Source: Sulfuriferula plumbiphila
GTDB lineage: Bacteria > Pseudomonadota > Gammaproteobacteria > Burkholderiales > Sulfuriferulaceae
Assembly (NCBI RefSeq): GCF_009938015.1
Contig: NZ_AP021884.1
Coordinates: 1,599,501 to 1,663,500, forward strand
DNA: 64,000 nucleotides
Direction: 5' to 3'
Part shown: piece after piece, positions 42,512 to 53,212 of the stretch
Layout of the letters: each line of letters starts with the position of its first letter
Numbering within the stretch: the first letter of the stretch is position 1
Program-made: the position numbers and the translations under genes
The notes under the pieces: generated by a model
Databases searched by the model: none
What the model was told of the DNA's origin: nothing
What the model saw: only the letters and a program-made list of their open reading frames with translations

Positions 42512-44020
42512 ATGAGGATATACAATTCTGCAAAGAAAGTTGGCATGCGACGGAATGGTGAGTGGGAAATATTGTTGGTGGGGCCAACGTTGGCTGCGGA
42601 TAAAGCTTTGCGTAAAAGGCTGTCCGTTGATTATGCGCTGTCTTCTGCGAATACCCTGGCTCGAGCCATTAAAGCAATGGAAGCGGGTGATATCGACGCG
42701 GTGGTGTCGGAGCAGCATTATCCTGATGGGCGTGGGGTTGATTTTCTCAAGCAAATGCGGGTCGTCCACCCGAACACCATTCGTATTCTGGTAATGGAAA
42801 CTGTACGGCGTGACGAGATCGTCAAACTGATCAACGACGCGGCGATCTATCAGGTGGTCGGAGCACCGTGGGAGCCCGAACAGATCAGCCTGATGCTCAA
42901 GCGCGCCCTGGAAAGTCGTGAATTGGCGCGCAGGCACCGCTATCTCAGCCACGAGCTGAAATTCGCCGACGCTGTGCTACACCGTCAGAATGACAGCATG
43001 ACGCGCGCGCTGCAAGAAACCTACGAATTCGACAAGTTGGTGTTTTGCAGCAATTCCATGGCCAAACTCTGCAACCAGGCAAAAAAGGCCGCTGCAACCG
43101 ATCTACCCGTGTTGATCGAAGGCGAAACCGGAACCGGCAAAGAACTCATGGCACGGGCGTTGCACCTGTTTAGCGCGCGCAGCAAGCAGATATTTCTGGC
43201 GCAAAATTGCGGTGAGTTGTCAGACAGCTTGTTGCAGTCCGAGTTGTTCGGCCACAAGCGCGGCGCGTTTACCGGCGCGGTGGGTAATCGTCTCGGTCTG
43301 TTTCCGGCGGCTGATGGCGGTACCGTTTTCCTGGATGAAATATCGGATATTTCTCCCGTCATGCAAGTCAGTCTGCTGCGCTTTTTGCAAGAAGGGGAGT
43401 TCAAGCCGGTGGGGGCTGACCAGACCCACCACAGTAATGTCCGCATCATTGCCGCAAGCAATCGCCCATTAAGCCAGTTGGTTGAGGAAGGCCGGTTCCG
43501 CCGCGATCTCTATTACCGCCTGCGCGGCCTGGAGCTGAAAATTCCACCCTTGCGGGAGCGGCCTGAAGATATTCAGGTGCTGACTGATTATTTGATCAAG
43601 AAATACGCCGAGAAAAGTAGCCGGAGGGTGGTGGGTATCTCTGCCGAAGCGATGCAAAGGCTCAAGTGCTATGACTTTCCAGGTAATGTGCGCGAGCTTG
43701 AAAACGAAGTGCGGCGCATGGTTGCGATGACAGAAAGCGGTGCCATCATTACCGTAGATCAACTATCCCCTGAAATAGCCCAAAGTCGACCCGGGTTACA
43801 GAATTTACGCGGGATAGAATTACCCCAGGGCGAGGGTTTTACGCTCAAGAGAACGGTCGAATTTATCGAAGCTCAACTCGTACGCCAGGCCTTGCATCGT
43901 CATCATTGGAACCACTCGCGCGCCGCACGCGAACTGGGTTTGTCGCGTGTGGGTCTGGACAACAAGATCAGGCGCTATGGCATCGAACGCGCCACGGATG
44001 GAGTGACCCAAAATGGCTGA
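42512..44020 (+). CDS. hoxA: HoxA/HupR-like sigma-54 activator with degenerate receiver
   Basis: NtrC-family activator of hydrogenase genes, 502 aa. Residues about 18-140 form a receiver-like domain, residues about 185-415 the AAA+ domain with Walker A GETGTGKE, the sigma-54 contact loop GAFTGA and Walker B GTVFLDEIS, and the C-terminus a Fis-type helix-turn-helix (HSRAARELGLSRVGLDNKIRRYG). The receiver lacks key residues: the acidic pair reads GP (VGPTL), the phospho-acceptor place is Glu67 (VVSEQ), and the usual KPW lysine is Ala118 (GAPW). A longer open frame back to 42179 runs through the IS and is not real. It precedes the sigma-54-dependent hupS promoter. Confidence 0.9.
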   Translation: MRIYNSAKKVGMRRNGEWEILLVGPTLAADKALRKRLSVDYALSSANTLARAIKAMEAGDIDAVVSEQHYPDGRGVDFLKQMRVVHPNTIRILVMETVRRDEIVKLINDAAIYQVVGAPWEPEQISLMLKRALESRELARRHRYLSHELKFADAVLHRQNDSMTRALQETYEFDKLVFCSNSMAKLCNQAKKAAATDLPVLIEGETGTGKELMARALHLFSARSKQIFLAQNCGELSDSLLQSELFGHKRGAFTGAVGNRLGLFPAADGGTVFLDEISDISPVMQVSLLRFLQEGEFKPVGADQTHHSNVRIIAASNRPLSQLVEEGRFRRDLYYRLRGLELKIPPLRERPEDIQVLTDYLIKKYAEKSSRRVVGISAEAMQRLKCYDFPGNVRELENEVRRMVAMTESGAIITVDQLSPEIAQSRPGLQNLRGIELPQGEGFTLKRTVEFIEAQLVRQALHRHHWNHSRAARELGLSRVGLDNKIRRYGIERATDGVTQNG

Positions 44021-44246
44021 TGACAATAAACCACCGGTATCAGAGTTGATACCCTTTCCGTTTTCAAGGGTGTCACCCCAACACACACCAGGCGGTTTCC
44101 GTGAATTAGGCACCACCCCACTGGCGCAACAACTGGGATTGGAAGAATGGCAACTCAATGGCCACTGGTGCAGCCGCTGCCAGGGAATCTGGTACGGCTA
44201 TACACTGGAAACGGAATGTCCCTGCTGCGGCAACCGACATGGTTAG
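44013..44246 (+). CDS. Small zinc-ribbon-like protein
   Basis: A 77-aa protein that overlaps the activator gene by 8 nt. Two CxxC pairs, HWCSRCQGIWYGY and ECPCCGNRHG, suggest a rubredoxin-like or zinc-ribbon knuckle in the last 30 residues. The N-terminal half is polar and probably flexible. No family is recognised. Its translational coupling to the regulator suggests a role in hydrogenase regulation or assembly. Confidence 0.65.
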   Translation: MADDNKPPVSELIPFPFSRVSPQHTPGGFRELGTTPLAQQLGLEEWQLNGHWCSRCQGIWYGYTLETECPCCGNRHG

Positions 44247-44534: not shown

Positions 44535-45497
44535 ATGGCAAATCTCTTGTGGTTACAAGGCGGTGCTTGCTCCGGCAACACCATGTCCTTTCTTAACGCC
44601 GAGGAACCGAGCGCCTGTGATCTCGTCACGGACTTCGGTATCAACGTGCTCTGGCACCCATCGCTCGGCGTGGAGCTCGGTGACAACGTGAAGAAAATCC
44701 TGCTCGATTGCATATCCGGCAAGATTGCGCTCGATATCTTCGTGTTCGAGGGCACGGTGGTCACCGCACCCAATGGCACAGGGGAATGGAACCGCTTCGC
44801 CGGTCGCGCGATGCAGGATTGGGTGCGTGAACTGTCCAAGGCGGCCACCTATGTTGTCGCCGTCGGCGACTGCGCCACCTGGGGCGGTATTCCCGCCACC
44901 GCGCCGAATCCCAGCGAATCCAGGGGCATGCAGTTCCTCAAGCGGGAGAAGGGCGGTTTTCTTGGCGATGGATTCAAATCCAAATCCGGTTTGCCGGTGG
45001 TCAACATTCCCGGTTGCCCGGCGCACCCGGACTGGATCACGCAAATCGTGGTCGCGATTGCCACCGGGCGCGGCGCCGACATCGCGGTGGACGAGTTCCA
45101 CCGTCCCAAGACCTTCTTCCAGAGCTTCACCCAGACCGGCTGCACGCGCAACATGCACTTCGCCTACAAGGTGTCGGCCACCGAGTTTGGCCAGCGCAAG
45201 GGCTGCCTGTTCTATGACCTCGGATGTCGCGGTCCGATGACGCATTCGCCCTGCAACCGCATCCTGTGGAACCGGCAGTCATCCAAGACGCGCGCCGGCA
45301 TGCCCTGCCTGGGTTGTACCGAACCCGAATTCCCGTTCTTCGATCTCGCGCCGGGTACCGTATTCAAGACGCAAACGGTGATGGGCGTACCCAAGGATCT
45401 GCCGCTGGGCGTGGACAAGAAAGGTTACATCGCCCTCACTGGCGCAGCCAAAAATGCGGCTCCCGCCTGGGCGGAACAAGACCTCTTCGTGGTTTGA
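44535..45497 (+). CDS. hupS: Group 2a [NiFe] hydrogenase small subunit
   Basis: Electron-transfer subunit, 320 aa. It starts directly MANLLWLQGGACSGNTMSF, with no twin-arginine signal, so the enzyme is cytoplasmic. That, and the C-terminus without a membrane helix, are traits of group 2a (cyanobacterial HupSL and mycobacterial Huc). Cysteine motifs for Fe-S clusters are GACSGN, GDCATWGG, PGCPAHP, QTGCTRN, KGCLFYDLGCRGP, HSPCNRILWN and PCLGCTEP. AAGGAGG precedes the ATG. First gene behind the sigma-54 promoter and 48 nt before hupL. Confidence 0.95.
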   Translation: MANLLWLQGGACSGNTMSFLNAEEPSACDLVTDFGINVLWHPSLGVELGDNVKKILLDCISGKIALDIFVFEGTVVTAPNGTGEWNRFAGRAMQDWVRELSKAATYVVAVGDCATWGGIPATAPNPSESRGMQFLKREKGGFLGDGFKSKSGLPVVNIPGCPAHPDWITQIVVAIATGRGADIAVDEFHRPKTFFQSFTQTGCTRNMHFAYKVSATEFGQRKGCLFYDLGCRGPMTHSPCNRILWNRQSSKTRAGMPCLGCTEPEFPFFDLAPGTVFKTQTVMGVPKDLPLGVDKKGYIALTGAAKNAAPAWAEQDLFVV

Positions 45498-45545: not shown

Positions 45546-47144
45546 ATGAGTGCTGTACAAACCCTGGATATTTCCCCGGTGGGTCGAGTTGAAGGCGACC
45601 TGGATGTGCGCGTCGACATCACCGACGGCGTCGTCACCAATGCATGGACTTCGGCCGAGCTGTTCCGCGGCTTCGAAATCATCCTGCGCGACAAGGACCC
45701 GCAAGCGGGCCTGGTGGTGACACCGCGCGCCTGCGGCATCTGCGGCGCCTCGCACCTGACCTGCGCAGCCTGGGCGCTTGATACGGCCTGGGCTACCGAG
45801 GTGCCGCGCAACGCGATCCTGGCGCGCAACCTCGGGCAGATCGCCGAGAGTCTGCAGAGCCAGCCGCGCTATTTCTATGGACTTTACGCCATTGACATGA
45901 CCAACAAGAAGTACCGCAACAGCAAATTCTACGAGGAAGCCTGCAAGCGCTTCGCGCCCTTCACCGGCACCTCGTACGAGCTGGGTGTCACCATCTCTGG
46001 CAAACCGGTGGAGATCTACGCCCTGCTCGGCGGGCAGTGGCCGCATTCGAGCTACATGGTGCCCGGCGGCGTGATGTGCGCACCGACCCTGACAGACATC
46101 ACGCGCTCCCGGTCCATCCTGGAGTATTTCAAGACCACCTGGCTGGAACCGGCGTGGCTGGGTTGCTCGCTGGAGCGCTACGAGCAGATCAAGACCTACG
46201 ATGACTTCATGGCCTGGCTCGACGAGAGTCCGGCGCACGCCAATTCTGACCTCGGCTTCTACTGGCGCATGGGCCTGGACATCGGTCTGGACAAGTACGG
46301 CGGCGGTGTCGGCAAATATATCTCCTGGGGCTATCTGCCGCACGAAGACAAGTACCAGAAGCCCACCATCGACGGCCGCAACGCGGCGCTCATCATGAAG
46401 GGCGGCGTCTACGACGGCAAGACCGATACCCACGTGCTGATGGACCAGAAATACGCCCGCGAGAATGTGATGCACGCCTGGTACGACGAAGGCGACAACG
46501 ACACCCATCCGTTCGATCGCACCACCAGGGCCGTCAGCAAGAATACCCCGGACTTCAACGGCAAGTATTCCTGGTCCACTGCAGTGAGCCATGTCGATTC
46601 GGGGCGTCTGGAGGCGGGTCCGTTCGCACGACAAATGGTCGCTGGCGGCCAGCATGGCGAAGCCTGGCAGCATTATGACGGCCTGATTCTCGATATGTAC
46701 AAGAAGATGGGCGGCCCCAGTCTGCATCTGCGCCAGATTGCACGCATGCATGAAACCATCAAGCTGTATCGTCAGGCCGAACGCTGCCTGGCTGAGTTCC
46801 GGCTGAACGACCCGTGGTACATCAAGCCCAAGGAACGTGATGGCCGTGGCTGGGGTGCTACCGAAGCGATCCGCGGCGCGCTGTGCCACTGGATCGAGGT
46901 GAAGGACGGCAAGATCAAGAACTACCAGATCATCGCCCCGACCACCTGGAACGTGGGTCCGCGTGATGGCCAGAATATCCGCGGGCCGATCGAGGAGGCG
47001 CTGGTTGGTACGCCGATTGCCGATCCGACCGACCCGGTGGAAGTCGGCCATGTGGCGCGTTCTTTCGACTCGTGCCTGGTGTGCACGGTTCATGCGCACG
47101 ACGGCAAGACCGGCAAGGAGTTGGCGCGCTTCCGCACTGCCTGA
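45546..47144 (+). CDS. hupL: Group 2a [NiFe] hydrogenase large subunit
   Basis: Catalytic subunit holding the NiFe(CN)2CO centre, 532 aa. The L1 motif is TPRACGICGASHLTC near residue 65 and the L2 motif is SFDSCLVCTVHAHD near the end. These provide the four nickel cysteines. The roughly 15 residues after CTVH are the C-terminal extension removed by the protease gene downstream. SPVGRVEGDLDVRVDI opens the protein. RBS AAAAGGAG lies before the ATG. H2 oxidation is the expected physiological direction for this group. Confidence 0.95.
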   Translation: MSAVQTLDISPVGRVEGDLDVRVDITDGVVTNAWTSAELFRGFEIILRDKDPQAGLVVTPRACGICGASHLTCAAWALDTAWATEVPRNAILARNLGQIAESLQSQPRYFYGLYAIDMTNKKYRNSKFYEEACKRFAPFTGTSYELGVTISGKPVEIYALLGGQWPHSSYMVPGGVMCAPTLTDITRSRSILEYFKTTWLEPAWLGCSLERYEQIKTYDDFMAWLDESPAHANSDLGFYWRMGLDIGLDKYGGGVGKYISWGYLPHEDKYQKPTIDGRNAALIMKGGVYDGKTDTHVLMDQKYARENVMHAWYDEGDNDTHPFDRTTRAVSKNTPDFNGKYSWSTAVSHVDSGRLEAGPFARQMVAGGQHGEAWQHYDGLILDMYKKMGGPSLHLRQIARMHETIKLYRQAERCLAEFRLNDPWYIKPKERDGRGWGATEAIRGALCHWIEVKDGKIKNYQIIAPTTWNVGPRDGQNIRGPIEEALVGTPIADPTDPVEVGHVARSFDSCLVCTVHAHDGKTGKELARFRTA

Positions 47145-47223: not shown

Positions 47224-47538
47224 ATGCAGAACGACCAGGAAAACGCGTTGCGGAATCGCATCGCGAAAATGATGGCCGATGGCCTGCAAACGCAAACCGA
47301 GCCATTTCCCGAGACCGATCGCGAGTTCGGCCAGTTGCTTGCCGAATTGCGCGATTTGCCTGCGGAAGATTTGAAAGCCAGGCTGGTGGTATCCGGTTTC
47401 GTCGACAAGCCTTACGGTCCGGATCAGATGCGTTGCCAGGAGTGCATGTACTACTTGGTGCATCGCAAGTGGTGCGACTTGCCGGAGCTGGCTGTTCCAG
47501 TGGAGCCTGACTGGTGGTGCCGTCTGTGGCGCATCTAG
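47224..47538 (+). CDS. HiPIP-like tetra-cysteine protein, copy 1
   Basis: A 104-aa protein without signal peptide. The N-terminal about 65 residues are helical and charged. The C-terminal end carries C-x2-C-x9-C-x14-C (CQECMYY, then KWCDLPELAVPVEPDWWCRLWRI), reminiscent of the cluster-binding end of high-potential iron-sulfur proteins (CxxC, C-LFPG, GWC). I infer a [4Fe-4S] or metal site. A clear paralogue lies 0.8 kb downstream. It is between hupL and an OmpW-like gene, so it may be an electron acceptor or assembly factor for the hydrogenase. Confidence 0.7.
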   Translation: MQNDQENALRNRIAKMMADGLQTQTEPFPETDREFGQLLAELRDLPAEDLKARLVVSGFVDKPYGPDQMRCQECMYYLVHRKWCDLPELAVPVEPDWWCRLWRI

Positions 47539-47623: not shown

Positions 47624-48244
47624 ATGAACAACATGAACAACATGAACAAATTGACCAGCCTTGCGTCTTGGCTCGCTACAATCGCCCTGACGTTTTCGAT
47701 GATTTCATCATCATTCGCCCAGACGGGCGATATAGTGATACGAACCACGGTGATCACCGCATCGACTCACGCCAGTTCCAAGACCCTGGGATTGGACGTT
47801 GGCAACGCCACATCGGTTGCGGTGGACGGGACCTATTTCGTCACGCCGAATATCGGGATCAATGTGCTGGCCACATTTCTCAATACCGAAGTCAAGGCAA
47901 AAAGTCTCGGCTCGCTTGGCTCGGTTGACCTGCTGCCCCCCATCTTCACGGTGCAATATCATTTTGCACCGGAGGGCCAAATCAGGCCTTACGCGGGCCT
48001 GGGCTTCAACTACAACCATTTCTACCACTACAGCGGTACGTTGAAGTCGGTCAACGCCAAAATCGATGACAAGGTCGGATTTGTCGCGCAGTTGGGCCTG
48101 GACTACATGCTGAGCAAGACGCTTTCACTGAACGCCGATCTGAAATATCTGGATGTCAGACCGGATGTTAAAACCACTTTGGGTAACGACAAGTTGAACC
48201 TGAGGGCGACCATCTTTGGTGTGGGGCTGGGTTATCGCTTCTGA
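47624..48244 (+). CDS. OmpW-like outer-membrane protein
   Basis: Eight-stranded barrel protein of the OmpW family, 206 aa. A signal peptide ends near SSSFAQTGD. Typical segments are VAVDGTYFVTPNIGINVLA, PPIFTVQYHF, IRPYAGLGFNYNHFY and the end VGLGYRF with terminal Phe. The start region is a ninefold-base repeat (ATGAACAAC twice, then ATGAACAAA), giving three in-frame ATG codons. GAGG precedes the first. An outer-membrane pore inside a cytoplasmic hydrogenase operon is unexpected. Confidence 0.85.
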   Translation: MNNMNNMNKLTSLASWLATIALTFSMISSSFAQTGDIVIRTTVITASTHASSKTLGLDVGNATSVAVDGTYFVTPNIGINVLATFLNTEVKAKSLGSLGSVDLLPPIFTVQYHFAPEGQIRPYAGLGFNYNHFYHYSGTLKSVNAKIDDKVGFVAQLGLDYMLSKTLSLNADLKYLDVRPDVKTTLGNDKLNLRATIFGVGLGYRF

Positions 48245-48323
48245 TGGTGGAAGGTTGTGGCCTCGGGATGCCAGCGATTCGATTCAATGGCAGCGTTGCG
48301 ATGGACAAAATGAAGAGACCAAA

Positions 48324-48650
48324 ATGGAAGAGACCGATCTCGATCTTCTCAGAGATAGCCTCGCCAGGCTGATGGAAGACGGCTTGGAAACCGAGTGGCG
48401 GGAGCGCGCATACACCAGCGAGGCGGTGAATGCCGTCGTCGCCCGGTTGCAGTCGCTGCGTCCCGACGATGTGGAGGGCAAACTCCGGGTTGCGGGGTTC
48501 AGGCTACAGCCTTACGATTGCACCGAAGAAGAAATCTCGCAAGCCTGCGAGACTTGCATGTACTACGTGAAGCATCGCCAGTTCTGCGACCTGCCGGAAT
48601 TGCAGCTTCCGGTCAGGCCTGAATGGTCGTGCCGGCTATGGCGGATTTAA
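48324..48650 (+). CDS. HiPIP-like tetra-cysteine protein, copy 2
   Basis: 108-aa paralogue of the 47.2-kb protein. The same layout is seen: an N-terminal helical part (LARLMEDGLETEWRERAY; compare MMADGLQTQTEPF in copy 1) and the motif CETCMYYVKHRQFCDLPELQLPV, then WSCRLWRI, with identical C-x2-C-x9-C-x14-C spacing. The ATG at 48324 is chosen because upstream codons overlap the intergenic sequence after OmpW. Conservation of two copies in one operon suggests they act as a pair or at two steps. Confidence 0.7.
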   Translation: MEETDLDLLRDSLARLMEDGLETEWRERAYTSEAVNAVVARLQSLRPDDVEGKLRVAGFRLQPYDCTEEEISQACETCMYYVKHRQFCDLPELQLPVRPEWSCRLWRI

Positions 48651-48681: not shown

Positions 48682-49164
48682 ATGCTGACCATCATTGGTT
48701 GCGGCAACCTCAATCGCAGCGACGACGGCGTCGGCGTGATCGTGGCCCGGCGCTTGATGGATTGGATCAACGCGCGTGGCATCAGCGATGTACCCGTATT
48801 TGACGCAGGAACCGCGGGTATGGACGTCATGTTCCGGGCGCGCGGTGCCAAAAAGTTGATCCTGATCGATGCATGCCGCAGCGGCTCGGAAGCGGGTGCG
48901 GTGTTCCAGGTGCCCGGTGCCGAATTGGCACAGGGCCATGACCCAGGCTACAGTCTGCATGACTTTCGCTGGGATCATGCGCTCTATGCGGGACGACGCA
49001 TTTTTGGCGCGGACTTTCCCACAGACGTGACCGTATTCCTGATTGAGGCCGCCGAACTTGGCCTGGGTCTGGAATTGAGCGAGCCGGTGCAGCGCGCGGC
49101 AGATCAGGTCGTTGACGATATCAAAGCCATTATCGAACGCCATGCAGTCCGCGCCATTGTCTGA
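48682..49164 (+). CDS. hoxW: Hydrogenase maturation protease
   Basis: Endopeptidase that trims the C-terminal extension of HupL after nickel insertion, 160 aa. It begins MLTIIGCGNLNRSDDGVGVIVAR, the nickel-sensing GxGNxxxxDDGxG motif of the HyaD/HoxW family, and has FDAGTAGMDVM and LILIDACRSG with the second acidic ligand. SLHDFRWDHALYAGRRIFG resembles HoxW-type members. It overlaps the next gene by 23 nt. Confidence 0.9.
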   Translation: MLTIIGCGNLNRSDDGVGVIVARRLMDWINARGISDVPVFDAGTAGMDVMFRARGAKKLILIDACRSGSEAGAVFQVPGAELAQGHDPGYSLHDFRWDHALYAGRRIFGADFPTDVTVFLIEAAELGLGLELSEPVQRAADQVVDDIKAIIERHAVRAIV

Positions 49165-49540: not shown

Positions 49541-49639
49541 TGAAAATATTGTTGACTTAAAAATCCTGACACCTATAGTTCTATCACTATTAAAAAAATT
49601 AACTCACCCGCAGCAGTGATTAATGGAGGAAACAAGGTG

Positions 49640-50623
49640 ATGCAAACGGCTGCCGAAATTCAATTCGCAGAGGCCATTCGGGCGGTTGAAGATCCCGCCA
49701 CCAGTCCCGAAGAACGCGCAGAAATGCTCATGGAAATCGCCATGGGTTTGCAGATCAAGCCAAAATCTCCTGCCCAGTTGCGCGATGCTGTCACACTCTA
49801 CCAACGGGCGCTTGCTGAGTTGCCCGAGTCTGCGATTTTGTTGAAAGCACGTATCCGTGCGCGTATGGGAACAGCACTTCAGACCATACCCGACGGAGGG
49901 ACTGATGCTTTGCGACAAGCCTGTGAATGCTACGAGAGCGTGTTACCGATTCTGTATCAGCAGGGCAAACCCGAAGAGGCCGCTGAAGTCGAATTGAATC
50001 TCGGCCTGGCGACACAGGGACTGGCAAGCCAGGGCGCAGCACGGATTCAGGATGCCATACAGTGCCATCACCGCGCCTTGCGCGTCTTCACAAAAGAGGC
50101 CTATCCGCAGGAATTCGCCGTGTTGCATAACAACCTGGCGATCGCCTATCTGTCGATTCCTGTCACGGATGAGCGCGGGAAAATGCGTGAGGCCATGGCA
50201 GTGCAATCATTCGAGGAAGTGCTGAAAGTCATCAACCTGATCGATCATCCGAGCGAGTACGCGATGATCCAGAACAACCTTGGCAACGCGCTGCAATATG
50301 CCTCCAGCAGCCACGCACTGGAAAACAATCTGCGTGCACTCGAAGCCTACGATGAAGCGCTGAAAGTGCGCAATCCACGCGATACGCCGGTGGAATATGC
50401 CAACACGATCGCCAACAAGGCCAATGTGCTGCGCAACCTGCCCGCCGATACCAAGACCGGTGTTGGGCAGAGTGTCCGTGAACAGGCAGTCGAACTGTAC
50501 CGCGAAGCGATCGCGCTGTTCGAACAATTTGGCCTGCACGATCGGAGTGAATTGCTCTCTGCAAGCATCGCAGAAATCGAACAAGAACACGAACATTCTG
50601 GAGAAGGCAAAGTCATTCACTAA
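49640..50623 (+). CDS. TPR-repeat hydrogenase accessory protein
   Basis: 327-aa all-helical TPR protein. Repeated 34-residue units include AVTLYQRALAELPESAILL, ACECYESVLPILYQQGKPEEAAEVELNLGLA, AIQCHHRALRVF, and ALEAYDEALKVRNPRDTPVEYANTIANKANVL. GGAGG at 49625-49629 favours ATG 49640 (or GTG 49637) over the upstream GTG at 49616. TPR proteins are recurrent members of group 2a and group 1h hydrogenase operons and probably scaffold assembly. Confidence 0.82.
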   Translation: MQTAAEIQFAEAIRAVEDPATSPEERAEMLMEIAMGLQIKPKSPAQLRDAVTLYQRALAELPESAILLKARIRARMGTALQTIPDGGTDALRQACECYESVLPILYQQGKPEEAAEVELNLGLATQGLASQGAARIQDAIQCHHRALRVFTKEAYPQEFAVLHNNLAIAYLSIPVTDERGKMREAMAVQSFEEVLKVINLIDHPSEYAMIQNNLGNALQYASSSHALENNLRALEAYDEALKVRNPRDTPVEYANTIANKANVLRNLPADTKTGVGQSVREQAVELYREAIALFEQFGLHDRSELLSASIAEIEQEHEHSGEGKVIH

Positions 50624-50650
50624 GTAAACCCTCATCATCAAGGAATGGAT

Positions 50651-50848
50651 ATGGATCTGCTGACTGCAATTGAATTACTCATACTTTCCGCTGTACTCGC
50701 CGCTGCTGGAGGGGCAGTGACGGGCTTAAAGATCGGTGGTGAATTCCTGGGCAAAGAGCTCGCGGCGATGATGGGTGCATTTTTTGGGCCTTCCTCGGTT
50801 CTACCTGCGGTGGTGCTCGGCATCATCGTGCTTGCTTGGTTGAAATAG
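50651..50848 (+). CDS. Small hydrophobic membrane protein 1
   Basis: A 65-aa very hydrophobic protein. A first helix (LLTAIELLILSAVLAAAGGAVTGLKIGGEF) with glycine-rich packing and a second (AAMMGAFFGPSSVLPAVVLGIIVLAW) suggest a two-helix membrane protein. AAGGA at 50640-50644 sits 6 nt before ATG 50651, making that the better start than 50645. It is 10 nt before the next small membrane gene. Not recognised as a known family. Position suggests a membrane anchor or quinone-access part of the hydrogenase. Confidence 0.65.
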   Translation: MDLLTAIELLILSAVLAAAGGAVTGLKIGGEFLGKELAAMMGAFFGPSSVLPAVVLGIIVLAWLK

Positions 50849-50857
50849 GAGCTACCC

Positions 50858-51079
50858 ATGCTGGAGATGTTCAAGAACTCGGTGAAGCTGTTCTTCAAGG
50901 GCAAGCTGTTCCGCGACAACAGAGCGGTATTCATGCAGTGGTTTAAAGGCTTCGTGATTGTGCTGGTGCTGTTGCTGGCTATTGGCTTCCTGGTTAACCC
51001 GCTGGTGGGTGTAATCGTCGCCAGCGTGGTTGGCGGCGCACTCCAGCCTTATCTGTTTAAAGACCTCAAGTATGACTGA
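50858..51079 (+). CDS. Small membrane protein 2 with basic amphipathic start
   Basis: A 73-aa protein. The N-terminal third is basic and amphipathic (KNSVKLFFKGKLFRDNRAVFMQWFKGF), followed by a hydrophobic hairpin (VIVLVLLLAIGFLVNPLVGVIVASVVGGAL) and a short polar tail. AGGAGC lies just before the ATG, overlapping the stop of the previous gene. It is the second of two tiny membrane proteins between the TPR and NifU-Rieske genes. Function unknown; a peripheral-to-membrane tether for the enzyme is plausible. Confidence 0.65.
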   Translation: MLEMFKNSVKLFFKGKLFRDNRAVFMQWFKGFVIVLVLLLAIGFLVNPLVGVIVASVVGGALQPYLFKDLKYD

Positions 51080-51085
51080 GCGCAG

Positions 51086-51997
51086 ATGAACGCACCGATG
51101 CCTCATGCCGATCCCGATAGCGTGGCAACTGATTCTGCTGCGGAGCTTGCTCGCATTGCCAGCCAGATTACGAAGCTTGATGAGATAGCCCAAACTTGGG
51201 ATGAGCATCACGCTGGCACACTGTCTGCGATCAAGTCCACCATCGAGGCGCTTAACTGCGAGGCATTCCGACGGCTGATCCGCTTTCTGCGCGAAGACCC
51301 GGCCTGTGCCGTGCGTTTGCGTGAAGCGGTGCGTGATCCTTTCGTCTTTGGTGTGTTGCGCTTTCATGGTCTGGTCAAAGATCCGCTGGAACATCGTGTC
51401 GAAGCCGCACTGGAAGAAGTGCGGCCTTATCTGCACGAGCACGGTGGCGATGTTGAACTGGTGGCAATCAGGGCACCGGACACGGTAGAGGTACGCCTGG
51501 TCGGCGCCTGTCACGGTTGCCCGGCCTCGGGCCAGACGCTGACCGAAGGCGTGGAGCGGGCGATCCGCCAGCACTGCCCGGAAGTACAACACATCCACCA
51601 GGTGAGCCGCCCGCCTCAGCAGCAGGCACATTCCGACACAACGCATCATGTAGTGCATTTCATCAGCCCGTTTGCCAAGGGCAGGGATGAAGGCTGGGAG
51701 CCAGTCTGCACGCTGGCAGACATTCCGGACGGCGGCATATTTACACATAGTCATCAGGGTCACGAGTTGCTGTTTTATCGCCGTAGTGCCGTGGTCAGCT
51801 GCATGAACAACGCCTGCGCCCATATGGGTATGCCGCTGGATGGCGGCGAGTTGATCGAGGGCACCTTGCGTTGCCCCTACCACGGTTTCACCTATCTGCT
51901 CGAAACCGGTGAATGCCTCACCGTGCCGGAAGTACAGCTCACCATGCACGCAGTCAAGGTGGCCAATGATGTTATTTCAGTACGCCTCGCGCGCTAG
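51086..51997 (+). CDS. NifU-domain/Rieske fusion protein
   Basis: 303-aa redox protein. The N-terminal about 90 residues are helical (DEIAQTWDEHHAGTL). Residues about 95-170 resemble the NifU C-terminal domain, with CHGCPAS as the CxxC site. Residues about 195-300 are a Rieske [2Fe-2S] domain: NACAHMGMPLDGG supplies CxH and LRCPYHGFTYLL supplies CxxH. Such NifU-Rieske proteins are found in group 2a and 1h hydrogenase loci (as HucE-type partners in mycobacteria, from memory) and probably carry electrons away from HupS. Confidence 0.85.
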   Translation: MNAPMPHADPDSVATDSAAELARIASQITKLDEIAQTWDEHHAGTLSAIKSTIEALNCEAFRRLIRFLREDPACAVRLREAVRDPFVFGVLRFHGLVKDPLEHRVEAALEEVRPYLHEHGGDVELVAIRAPDTVEVRLVGACHGCPASGQTLTEGVERAIRQHCPEVQHIHQVSRPPQQQAHSDTTHHVVHFISPFAKGRDEGWEPVCTLADIPDGGIFTHSHQGHELLFYRRSAVVSCMNNACAHMGMPLDGGELIEGTLRCPYHGFTYLLETGECLTVPEVQLTMHAVKVANDVISVRLAR

Positions 51998-52000
51998 GCC

Positions 52001-53212
52001 ATGAACACAACATTGCGTGTCTCGCTCTCGCCGGGTCAAAAGCGCCATGCCCTTGCTGCGCCTGTACTCCCATTGCTTGCCGACGCTGGCGCAACAGTGA
52101 TCCTGGGTGCCGCCAACGCAGGGCAGGATCTCAACACTTCGCTTGCGCCCAGCGCGCACAGCCTGTTCGGTCCGCGCGGCGTATGCCTCGCCGCGAACGG
52201 CAGCCTGTGGGTGGCTGATACCGGGCATCATCGTATGCTCGGCTGGCGCAGCTTGCCCGGCGAAGACAATGCGGCCGCTCAGATACTCATCGGCCAGCCT
52301 GACTTTGCACATGAAGGGCGCAACGCCAAGGGCGCGCCCTATGGTGCCACGCTTAACGTCCCCACCGGAATTGCGGCGTGCGGCGCAGGCATTGCTGTGG
52401 CTGATGGCTGGAATCATCGTGTGCTGATCTGGCACGAGCCGCCGCGCACTCACAACCAGCCCGCCGACCTGGTGCTGGGGCAGACAGACTTTGGCGCGGT
52501 TGAGTGCAACCGCGGCAGCGACAGACCCAGCGCAGACACATTGTTCTGGCCGTTCGGCGTAGCCTGGGATGGCACACGTCTGTGGGTCGCCGATACCGGC
52601 AACCGCCGTGTGCTGATGTGGAACGGTTTGCCCACGCGCAACGGCCAGCCCGCCGATCTGGTGCTCGGGCAACGCAGCTTCGACAGTCGCGACGAGAACG
52701 GCGGCGGCACCCCCGATGCAAGCAGCATGCGCTGGCCACATGGGCTGGCATTTCTGGGCACAGGCGTGTGCGTCGCCGACGCCGGCAACAACCGCGTCAT
52801 GGTCTGGCGTACGCTCCCCACGGCCAACGGCCAGGCTTGCGACGCCTTACTCGGCCAGCAAACGGCTTCCGGCGTCGATCACAATCGGGGCGACTACTGG
52901 CCGACTGCATCCGCGCTCAATATGCCCTATGCGGTCACCACGCTGGGTGACTGGCTGGTCGTGGCGGATACCGCCAGTTCGCGTCTCCTGGCATGGCACG
53001 ATCAGGACATCAACGGATACGGGGCACAGCCTCGCCTGCTCGCCGCGCAACCCGACTGGGAAGCCAAAGGCGACAATCGCTGGATGGCGGCCATGCGCGA
53101 CAGTCTGTGCTGGCCGTTCGGTCTGTGCAGCAGCAGCGAATACGCCATTATCGCCGATGCGGGCAATAACCGCGTCATGTTGTGGCGCTGGAGTCGGGAG
53201 ATGGAAGCATGA
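52001..53212 (+). CDS. NHL-repeat beta-propeller protein
   Basis: 403-aa NHL-type propeller. At least six repeats share the pattern of a variable blade followed by WVADTGHHRMLGW, VADGWNHRVLIW, WVADTGNRRVLMW, VADAGNNRVMVW, VADTASSRLLAW or IADAGNNRVMLW. There is no signal peptide, so it acts in the cytoplasm. NHL proteins are constant companions of group 2a/1h hydrogenases; role unclear, presumably assembly or docking. Its end overlaps hypF by 4 nt. Confidence 0.85.
   Translation: MNTTLRVSLSPGQKRHALAAPVLPLLADAGATVILGAANAGQDLNTSLAPSAHSLFGPRGVCLAANGSLWVADTGHHRMLGWRSLPGEDNAAAQILIGQPDFAHEGRNAKGAPYGATLNVPTGIAACGAGIAVADGWNHRVLIWHEPPRTHNQPADLVLGQTDFGAVECNRGSDRPSADTLFWPFGVAWDGTRLWVADTGNRRVLMWNGLPTRNGQPADLVLGQRSFDSRDENGGGTPDASSMRWPHGLAFLGTGVCVADAGNNRVMVWRTLPTANGQACDALLGQQTASGVDHNRGDYWPTASALNMPYAVTTLGDWLVVADTASSRLLAWHDQDINGYGAQPRLLAAQPDWEAKGDNRWMAAMRDSLCWPFGLCSSSEYAIIADAGNNRVMLWRWSREMEA

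Follow-up and report, generated by a model that had tools for sequence, protein, structure and literature searches.

Two short adjacent genes in the group 2a [NiFe]-hydrogenase operon of Sulfuriferula plumbiphila, here called A and B, encode conserved membrane proteins that travel closely with a HucM-less branch of the group 2a hydrogenases. In our view A/B are the best candidate for the component by which these enzymes, the cyanobacterial one among them, are linked to the membrane. The fuller proposal, that A and B form a dedicated two-protein membrane module that docks HupSL and gives it access to quinone throughout this branch in Pseudomonadota and cyanobacteria, seems to us evenly balanced between right and wrong. 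Both had already been recorded as genes; what is new is the tie to one hydrogenase branch, the extension to Pseudomonadota and the complementary occurrence with HucM.

Operon layout and the A and B proteins

The window, that is the whole 64,000-nucleotide stretch analysed (G000 C1:1599501-1663500), carries a group 2a [NiFe]-hydrogenase operon. Its 5' part holds a sigma-54-type regulator, a cysteine-containing 77-aa protein whose CxxC...CPCC pattern resembles a zinc ribbon (44013-44246), the small-subunit gene hupS (44535..45497, +), the large-subunit gene hupL (45546..47144, +), a cysteine-rich 104-aa protein (47224..47538, +), an OmpW-like outer-membrane gene (47624-48244) and a 110-aa protein resembling the 104-aa one (48318..48650, +). 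The middle part consists of a hydrogenase maturation protease (48682..49164, +), a 132-aa protein, a TPR-like protein (49616..50623, +; Pfam TPR match 1.1e-4, below its cut-off), A (50651..50848, +), B (50858..51079, +), the NifU-like and Rieske protein HucE (51086..51997, +; PF01106 4.2e-24, PF00355 3.5e-16) and an NHL-repeat protein (52001..53212, +). The 3' part comprises hypF, hypC, a SIS protein, hypD, hypE, a 192-aa protein, hypA, hypB and a nickel/cobalt-type transporter. Pfam and NCBIfam scans covered ten window proteins each, eleven in all; the hyp, SIS, NHL and transporter genes were named after the annotated plasmid-cluster genes that they match, and the sigma-54-type and OmpW-like labels were assigned by eye. 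Across 62 other loci with hupL, the 77-aa protein has a match in 25 and the OmpW-like gene in none.

The best solved relative of the window HupS is mycobacterial HucS (8.7e-159). HupS and HupL are nearest to Huc, a signal peptide is not apparent in HupS when judged by eye, and HucE and the NHL protein are neighbours, which together identify the predicted enzyme as group 2a, in agreement with the signal-less group 2a hydrogenase of an earlier sequence-only reading. That reading had also singled out two tiny, hydrophobic genes of 65 and 73 codons between the TPR and NifU-Rieske genes, and both open reading frames are there and conserved. Each has a Shine-Dalgarno-like motif, aagga (50640-50644) before the ATG of A at 50651 and ggag (50848-50851) before the ATG of B at 50858, and A is separated from B by 9 bases and B from hucE by 6.

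A and B are confirmed as real, conserved membrane proteins, beyond what chance would give: 68 sequences of each were recovered from other loci (38 + 30 each), some of them nearly identical. Over 54 sequences the invariant residues are G21, G34 and G42 in A and M1, G15, L17 and G60 in B, and both ends of B are conserved (GKLFRD-like and PYLFKDLKY-like). AlphaFold2 predicts A (65 aa) as a helical hairpin (3-33, 35-64) broken at the invariant G34 (mean pLDDT 91.3, pTM 0.67), and B (73 aa) as a short N-terminal helix followed by two longer ones (2-13, 21-45, 48-66; mean pLDDT 92.8, pTM 0.67). By Kyte-Doolittle hydropathy, 4 of the 22 operon proteins pass the membrane threshold, namely A with two segments, B with one, the NHL protein with one near its N-terminus, and the terminal transporter, so that from hupS to hypB A and B are the sole such proteins besides the N-terminal stretch of the NHL protein. 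The same scan of 25 proteins from three HucM-type clusters gave one borderline stretch, in a TPR protein. The sequence-only reading had ascribed a basic amphipathic start to B; it is basic in the window (+4 over residues 1-24, with a family mean of +1.6), but its amphipathic character does not exceed that of shuffled controls: the hydrophobic moment of residues 2-13 over 49 sequences is reached by 31% of shuffles.

Neither protein matches a solved structure by sequence at E<=1, and Foldseek against the PDB gives no convincing fold relative (best E 4.9 for A and 7.4 for B). Hence, solved structures hint at no function. A and B are not supported as paralogues of each other (hhalign probability 3.9), and an apparent natural A-B fusion in two cyanobacterial 145-codon B frames (L068, L069) is explained by A's DNA read out of frame. 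In group 1 hydrogenases, cytochrome b subunits are the membrane link of an uptake hydrogenase. A/B differ from these in that the window proteins have no transporter or cytochrome b family match above the Pfam cut-off, have two predicted membrane helices each and contain no histidine, and thus no haem-binding one.

The NCBIfam asr0689 model (NF052670) is matched by 49/49 A proteins tested at E<=0.001. The window A (4.4e-14) scores 52.3 bits, under the equivalog cut-off of 95 bits, and is therefore an asr0689-family homologue that is not named by the model. For B, 0/49 members match NCBIfam at E<=0.001 and Pfam gives just scattered single-member matches at E<=0.01; gene order, Anabaena and Calothrix relatives in the same alignment and two membrane helices point to asr0690 as its counterpart. 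The Nostoc sp. PCC 7120 pair asr0689/asr0690, listed with the tags Npun_R0366 and Npun_R0365, was published in 2008 in a passage on an 'extended hyp operon' (Agervald et al., PMC2408588), which also offers the guess that the asr0689-alr0692 block comprises small-subunit maturation genes. It resembles A/B in family (for A), tandem order, two membrane segments each and TPR, NifU-like, NHL and hyp neighbours; by position, the window TPR and NHL genes are the counterparts of alr0691 and, in the gene order of PMC2408588, alr0693. Text by Holmqvist et al. is a second earlier treatment of asr0689/asr0690, and locus tags of the block have single mentions in PMC2821919 and, for alr0693 only, in PMC12923008. 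The statement of the sequence-only reading that the genes are absent from hyp and hup lists is thus only partly right, since they belong to the Nostoc extended hyp operon and an NCBIfam model exists. Described in cyanobacteria with a maturation guess, the pair is shown here to occur in Pseudomonadota as well and to go with the absence of HucM.

Co-occurrence with group 2a hydrogenases

A protein-level search for B over genome contigs, in which hydrogenase was not a criterion, gave 35 loci. All 35 sit among hup/hyp genes and have A directly upstream of B; hupS and/or hupL lie on the examined stretch in 30, and the remaining five (L002, L004, L020, L029, L033) hold other hup or hyp genes. Homologues widespread without a hydrogenase were looked for and not found in these searches. 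Instead, A/B track group 2a HupSL, the co-occurrence that the sequence-only reading had proposed to examine.

Across the 194 genomes searched from the cyanobacterial phylum, HupL (E<=1e-120), the B profile and the A profile are each found in 29, and the three genome lists are identical. Six of the 29 genomes had entered via the B search, which leaves 23/23 against 165 negatives; the chance of such overlap would be negligible if genomes were independent, and since they are related the figure is no probability. One genome (G503) has two matches each for HupL, A and B, its second HupL match covering residues 167-532 only, a partial match also seen in many heterocystous genomes. At one locus of this genome (L060), two A/B pairs lie inside 20 kb.

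In five genomes hupSL lies away from A/B on the same contig, at 0.11 (G600), 0.98 (G575), 1.49 (G481), 2.06 (G571) and 2.23 Mb (G609), hupS and hupL being adjacent in those loci that entered the tree; G571, G575 and G609 form one clade. Given these distances of 0.1-2.2 Mb, the link between A/B and the hydrogenase is not mere gene neighbourhood.

Among 398 Pseudomonadota genomes, the HupL query has five matches: the window, G258, G401 and G403 (at least 77% identity) and G123 (43%). B has six, in the window, G258, G401, G403, G038 and G294. The G294 match is false, lying inside an unrelated 224-aa open reading frame, and in G038 an accessory cluster with A and B runs to the contig end, with HupS (86%) on another contig. 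True B thus occurs in five of the 398 genomes, and group 2a genes are present in all five. The G123 locus is without A, B and HucM.

Among the 40 records listed by a search of 72,556 plasmid records, 17 carry HupL at 54% identity or above: 12 from Pseudomonadota and 5 others. Plain tblastn with B finds 10 plasmid records, all among the 12 from Pseudomonadota, and the remaining two (Sphingopyxis and Novosphingobium) prove to have both A and B when searched with the profile. Absence by plain tblastn is therefore weak, given that tblastn with A finds one plasmid record and with B misses two. Eleven of the 17 plasmid clusters were examined; the other six are Bradyrhizobium plasmids like the one examined. 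Whole-genome searches centred on three phyla, and the other HucM-type phyla were covered by plasmid records and papers. Identical HupSL occurs at three loci (L008, L010, L047) in genomes labelled Porticoccaceae and Mariprofundus and in G258, and G009 and G258 have the same MenD coordinates, so some bins are probably duplicates or misassigned.

The close restriction of A/B to one hydrogenase branch weighs against an unrelated membrane task for them in the operon, for example the transport of metals or small molecules, or the organisation of lipids nearby. So does the result that, for the window proteins, these hairpins of 65-73 aa have no above-cut-off match to a transporter family. An ABC-transporter-like annotation of asr0689/asr0690 is mentioned in a passage of PMC2408588 and speaks for such a task, which we nevertheless regard as very improbable.

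HucM and the quinone site of HupS

HucM belongs to DUF1641: on a plasmid of M. intracellulare, the gene beside hucS matches PF07849 as well as the HucM chain in PDB 7uus (2.9e-34). DUF1641/HucM was not found in the window's genome or in any of the 34 other B-bearing genomes searched (L027's genome left out). Plasmid clusters of Mycobacterium, Thermus and Sulfobacillus do carry it, as does genome G680 (PF07849 at 22.2 bits, just over the cut-off of 21), and in these four HucM-bearing clusters A/B were not found on the stretches scanned. G680 comes from the phylum of G004 (labelled Acidobacteria), which carries the A/B type; this genome may be misplaced, because its A/B type sits on a 7.4-kb contig of a metagenome bin. 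In the cyanobacterial phylum, DUF1641 occurs in 3/194 genomes, none with HupL, and its absence from cyanobacterial A/B genomes is weak evidence alone because it is rare in the phylum anyway. The Runella and Hymenobacter plasmid clusters (L039, L044; Bacteroidota) are without A/B, HucM and HucE on the plasmid stretches examined. TPR, HucE and NHL genes occur with both A/B-type and HucM-type enzymes, which makes A/B versus HucM the part that changes.

Homology of A or B to HucM was looked for and not detected: PF07849 matches are absent at E<=1 and the hhalign probability is 0.1. The TPR proteins of three HucM-type loci (L037, L038, L040) have 409-424 aa and an N-terminal RPQPLGxFP segment that the window TPR protein (335 aa) is without; this longer TPR form may be a second difference that goes with the HucM type.

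Judged by the phyla concerned, menaquinone might go with HucM and benzoquinones with A/B, but MenD does not separate the two types. The MenD cut-off is reached in 0/27 Pseudomonadota A/B genomes (of which G009 and G258 are probably one genome), and the window's genome has no MenD above it. HucM-type G680 likewise falls below the cut-off, and G024 and G571 from the cyanobacterial phylum are above it.

HucM (MSMEG_2261, DUF1641) serves a group 2a hydrogenase that needs membrane quinone, the task proposed here for A/B. It is described as a 188-aa alpha-helical scaffold with a coiled-coil stalk (PMC10017518), whereas A/B are two predicted integral hairpins, with homology undetected. A related case, described in PMC8808070, is ForE of the Bacillus subtilis ForCE formate dehydrogenases, a small partner subunit through which a dehydrogenase that has no membrane segments of its own is coupled to menaquinone; unlike A/B, it belongs to DUF1641, has no membrane segment and serves a different enzyme. 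Passages elsewhere present the Parageobacillus huc operon as a further DUF1641-type case (PMC12976888) and call HysM of archaeal group 2e a HucM homologue (PMC11018855).

In Huc, the menaquinone head group is described as held by HucS Tyr301, Tyr229 and the Lys212 backbone (structural text of PMC10017518). The window HupS aligns with HucS over nearly its full length and has K212, Y227 and Y298 at the quinone-contact positions. Both tyrosines (Tyr229 and Tyr301 equivalents) are present in 54/54 A/B-type HupS scored, where the Tyr301 of one A/B row (L025), an interrupted gene with a non-homologous tail, is to be disregarded, and in 4/4 of the HucM type. The lysine equivalent is found in 53/54 A/B-type (one arginine) and 4/4 HucM-type proteins. 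Both Bacteroidota rows, without A/B or HucM, also keep both tyrosines. The tyrosine site hence marks group 2a in general, and a conserved quinone site alone requires no A/B- or HucM-like device.

Two short deletions near the quinone site (2 + 1 residues relative to the HucM type) occur in all 43 A/B-type rows in which both places can be scored, and the 11 A/B rows with one scorable place contain no exception; HucM-type HupS has the longer form at both places in 4/4 rows. Bacteroidota HupS is scorable at the second place only, with the short form in Hymenobacter and the long form in Runella. A quick tree was built from 46 rows of concatenated HupS and HupL, with a very long branch for the outgroup row L046. 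In it, all 39 A/B rows fall to one side of a single branch (SH-aLRT 100) and the four HucM rows to one side of a second (91). Given that the A/B-type enzymes are one clade, the swap between HucM and A/B is a single event, which may be coincidence. Judging from these alignments, the A/B-branch enzyme probably reduces quinone directly, as Huc does, beside a remodelled site.

A C-terminal W..ED.FV-like tail seen in A/B and HucM examples is lacking from the Runella and Hymenobacter HupS and may belong with HucE.

Possible roles: docking, maturation or electron relay

To reduce quinone, signal-less HupSL must meet the membrane, and HucM is missing, so the simplest reading is that A and B do HucM's job. 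Beyond the observed genes, association, HucM absence, conserved site and predicted hairpins, we infer HupS contact, quinone passage, topology and quinone type as follows. Cytoplasmic HupSL would oxidise H2, and electrons would pass to a quinone whose head group is held near the distal HupS cluster by the pair of conserved tyrosines, as in mycobacterial Huc. A and B in the inner membrane, with the ends of B cytoplasmic, would form the docking place for HupS, which is what the HucM stalk does in mycobacteria, and would let membrane quinone (ubiquinone or plastoquinone) reach the HupS site. More tentatively, at somewhat short of an even chance, A/B could be a third, membrane-embedded component of the uptake hydrogenase in cyanobacteria and proteobacteria: a minimal helical platform unrelated to HucM and cytochrome b subunits, on which HupS sits and where ubiquinone or plastoquinone passes, and thus a second, independent solution to how a soluble hydrogenase gains access to quinone.

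The main rival to docking is a role in maturing or assembling HupS from the membrane side, in which A and B, with TPR and HucE, would insert or protect its iron-sulfur clusters, as Agervald and colleagues proposed maturation for the asr0689-alr0692 block; we judge this unlikely. The order TPR-A-B-HucE, kept in most loci, speaks for it: a TPR gene is directly upstream of A in 32/35 loci and HucE was found downstream of B in 28/35, the window HucE being a weak query for cyanobacteria. The split genomes also keep A/B with TPR and not with hupSL, since A/B have TPR and HucE as neighbours in three of the five (L050, L052, L054), TPR alone in one (L058, G600) and neither in the last (L059, G481). 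In Nostoc, the A/B block is described as co-transcribed with hyp genes (transcript passages of PMC2408588), and HucE loss in M. smegmatis is reported to abolish even dye-stained Huc activity (PMC6883350), so the A/B neighbourhood contains activity-essential functions. However, TPR, HucE and NHL accompany HucM-type enzymes whose clusters are without A/B, hence the set appears to work without A/B, and a cytoplasmic enzyme has no obvious need for a membrane-embedded maturation step. A maturation role keeps some probability because gene order ties A/B to TPR/HucE rather than to hupSL. The tyrosines retained in the Bacteroidota clusters with neither device shift the balance slightly from docking towards maturation.

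The sequence-only reading is on the whole partly supported. Its suggestion that the pair could replace HucM stands as a matter of distribution, given that DUF1641 is absent in 35/35, HucM clusters are without A/B on the stretches examined and the quinone residues are kept. It is weakened by undetected homology, a single switch and a gene order that favours TPR/HucE over hupSL.

Electrons might alternatively exit HupSL via a protein relay, through the HucE Rieske domain or the 104/110-aa pair, with A/B merely anchoring the relay. The 104- and 110-aa proteins are similar and cysteine-rich (CxxC...C...C), end in WCRLWRI and are a possible iron-sulfur relay, and the authors of an Acidithiobacillus ferrooxidans study propose, in a passage of PMC7735108, that the missing link to ubiquinone is either the NifU-Rieske protein or a putative HiPIP located close to hupLS. 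A match to the 104-aa protein occurs in 29/62 other loci with hupL, all of which are A/B-type and fall in the proteobacterial part of the HupSL tree, although L013 is labelled Melainabacteria. In the same 62 loci, no match was found in photosynthetic cyanobacterial, HucM-type or Bacteroidota loci, although the photosynthetic cyanobacterial loci do have A/B. Moreover, purified mycobacterial Huc is described as HucS, HucL and HucM only and as reducing menaquinone analogues (purification text of PMC10017518), and the HupS quinone site is conserved. We therefore find a relay quite improbable.

A two-subunit group 2a Hup purified from A. ferrooxidans was active with methylene blue, according to work cited in a passage of PMC7735108, so dye-linked catalysis needs no A/B. 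This result fits the docking and maturation readings alike.

Passages of PMC6616624 and PMC7735108 treat as unsettled how the uptake hydrogenase of cyanobacteria and its relatives in proteobacteria are linked to the membrane. With A and B, the question comes down to two short genes that can be removed in one step in Anabaena or Nostoc, which makes it directly testable. If A/B are the link, this would matter for H2 uptake in organisms that use ubiquinone and for H2-producing cyanobacteria, whose uptake hydrogenase consumes the product.
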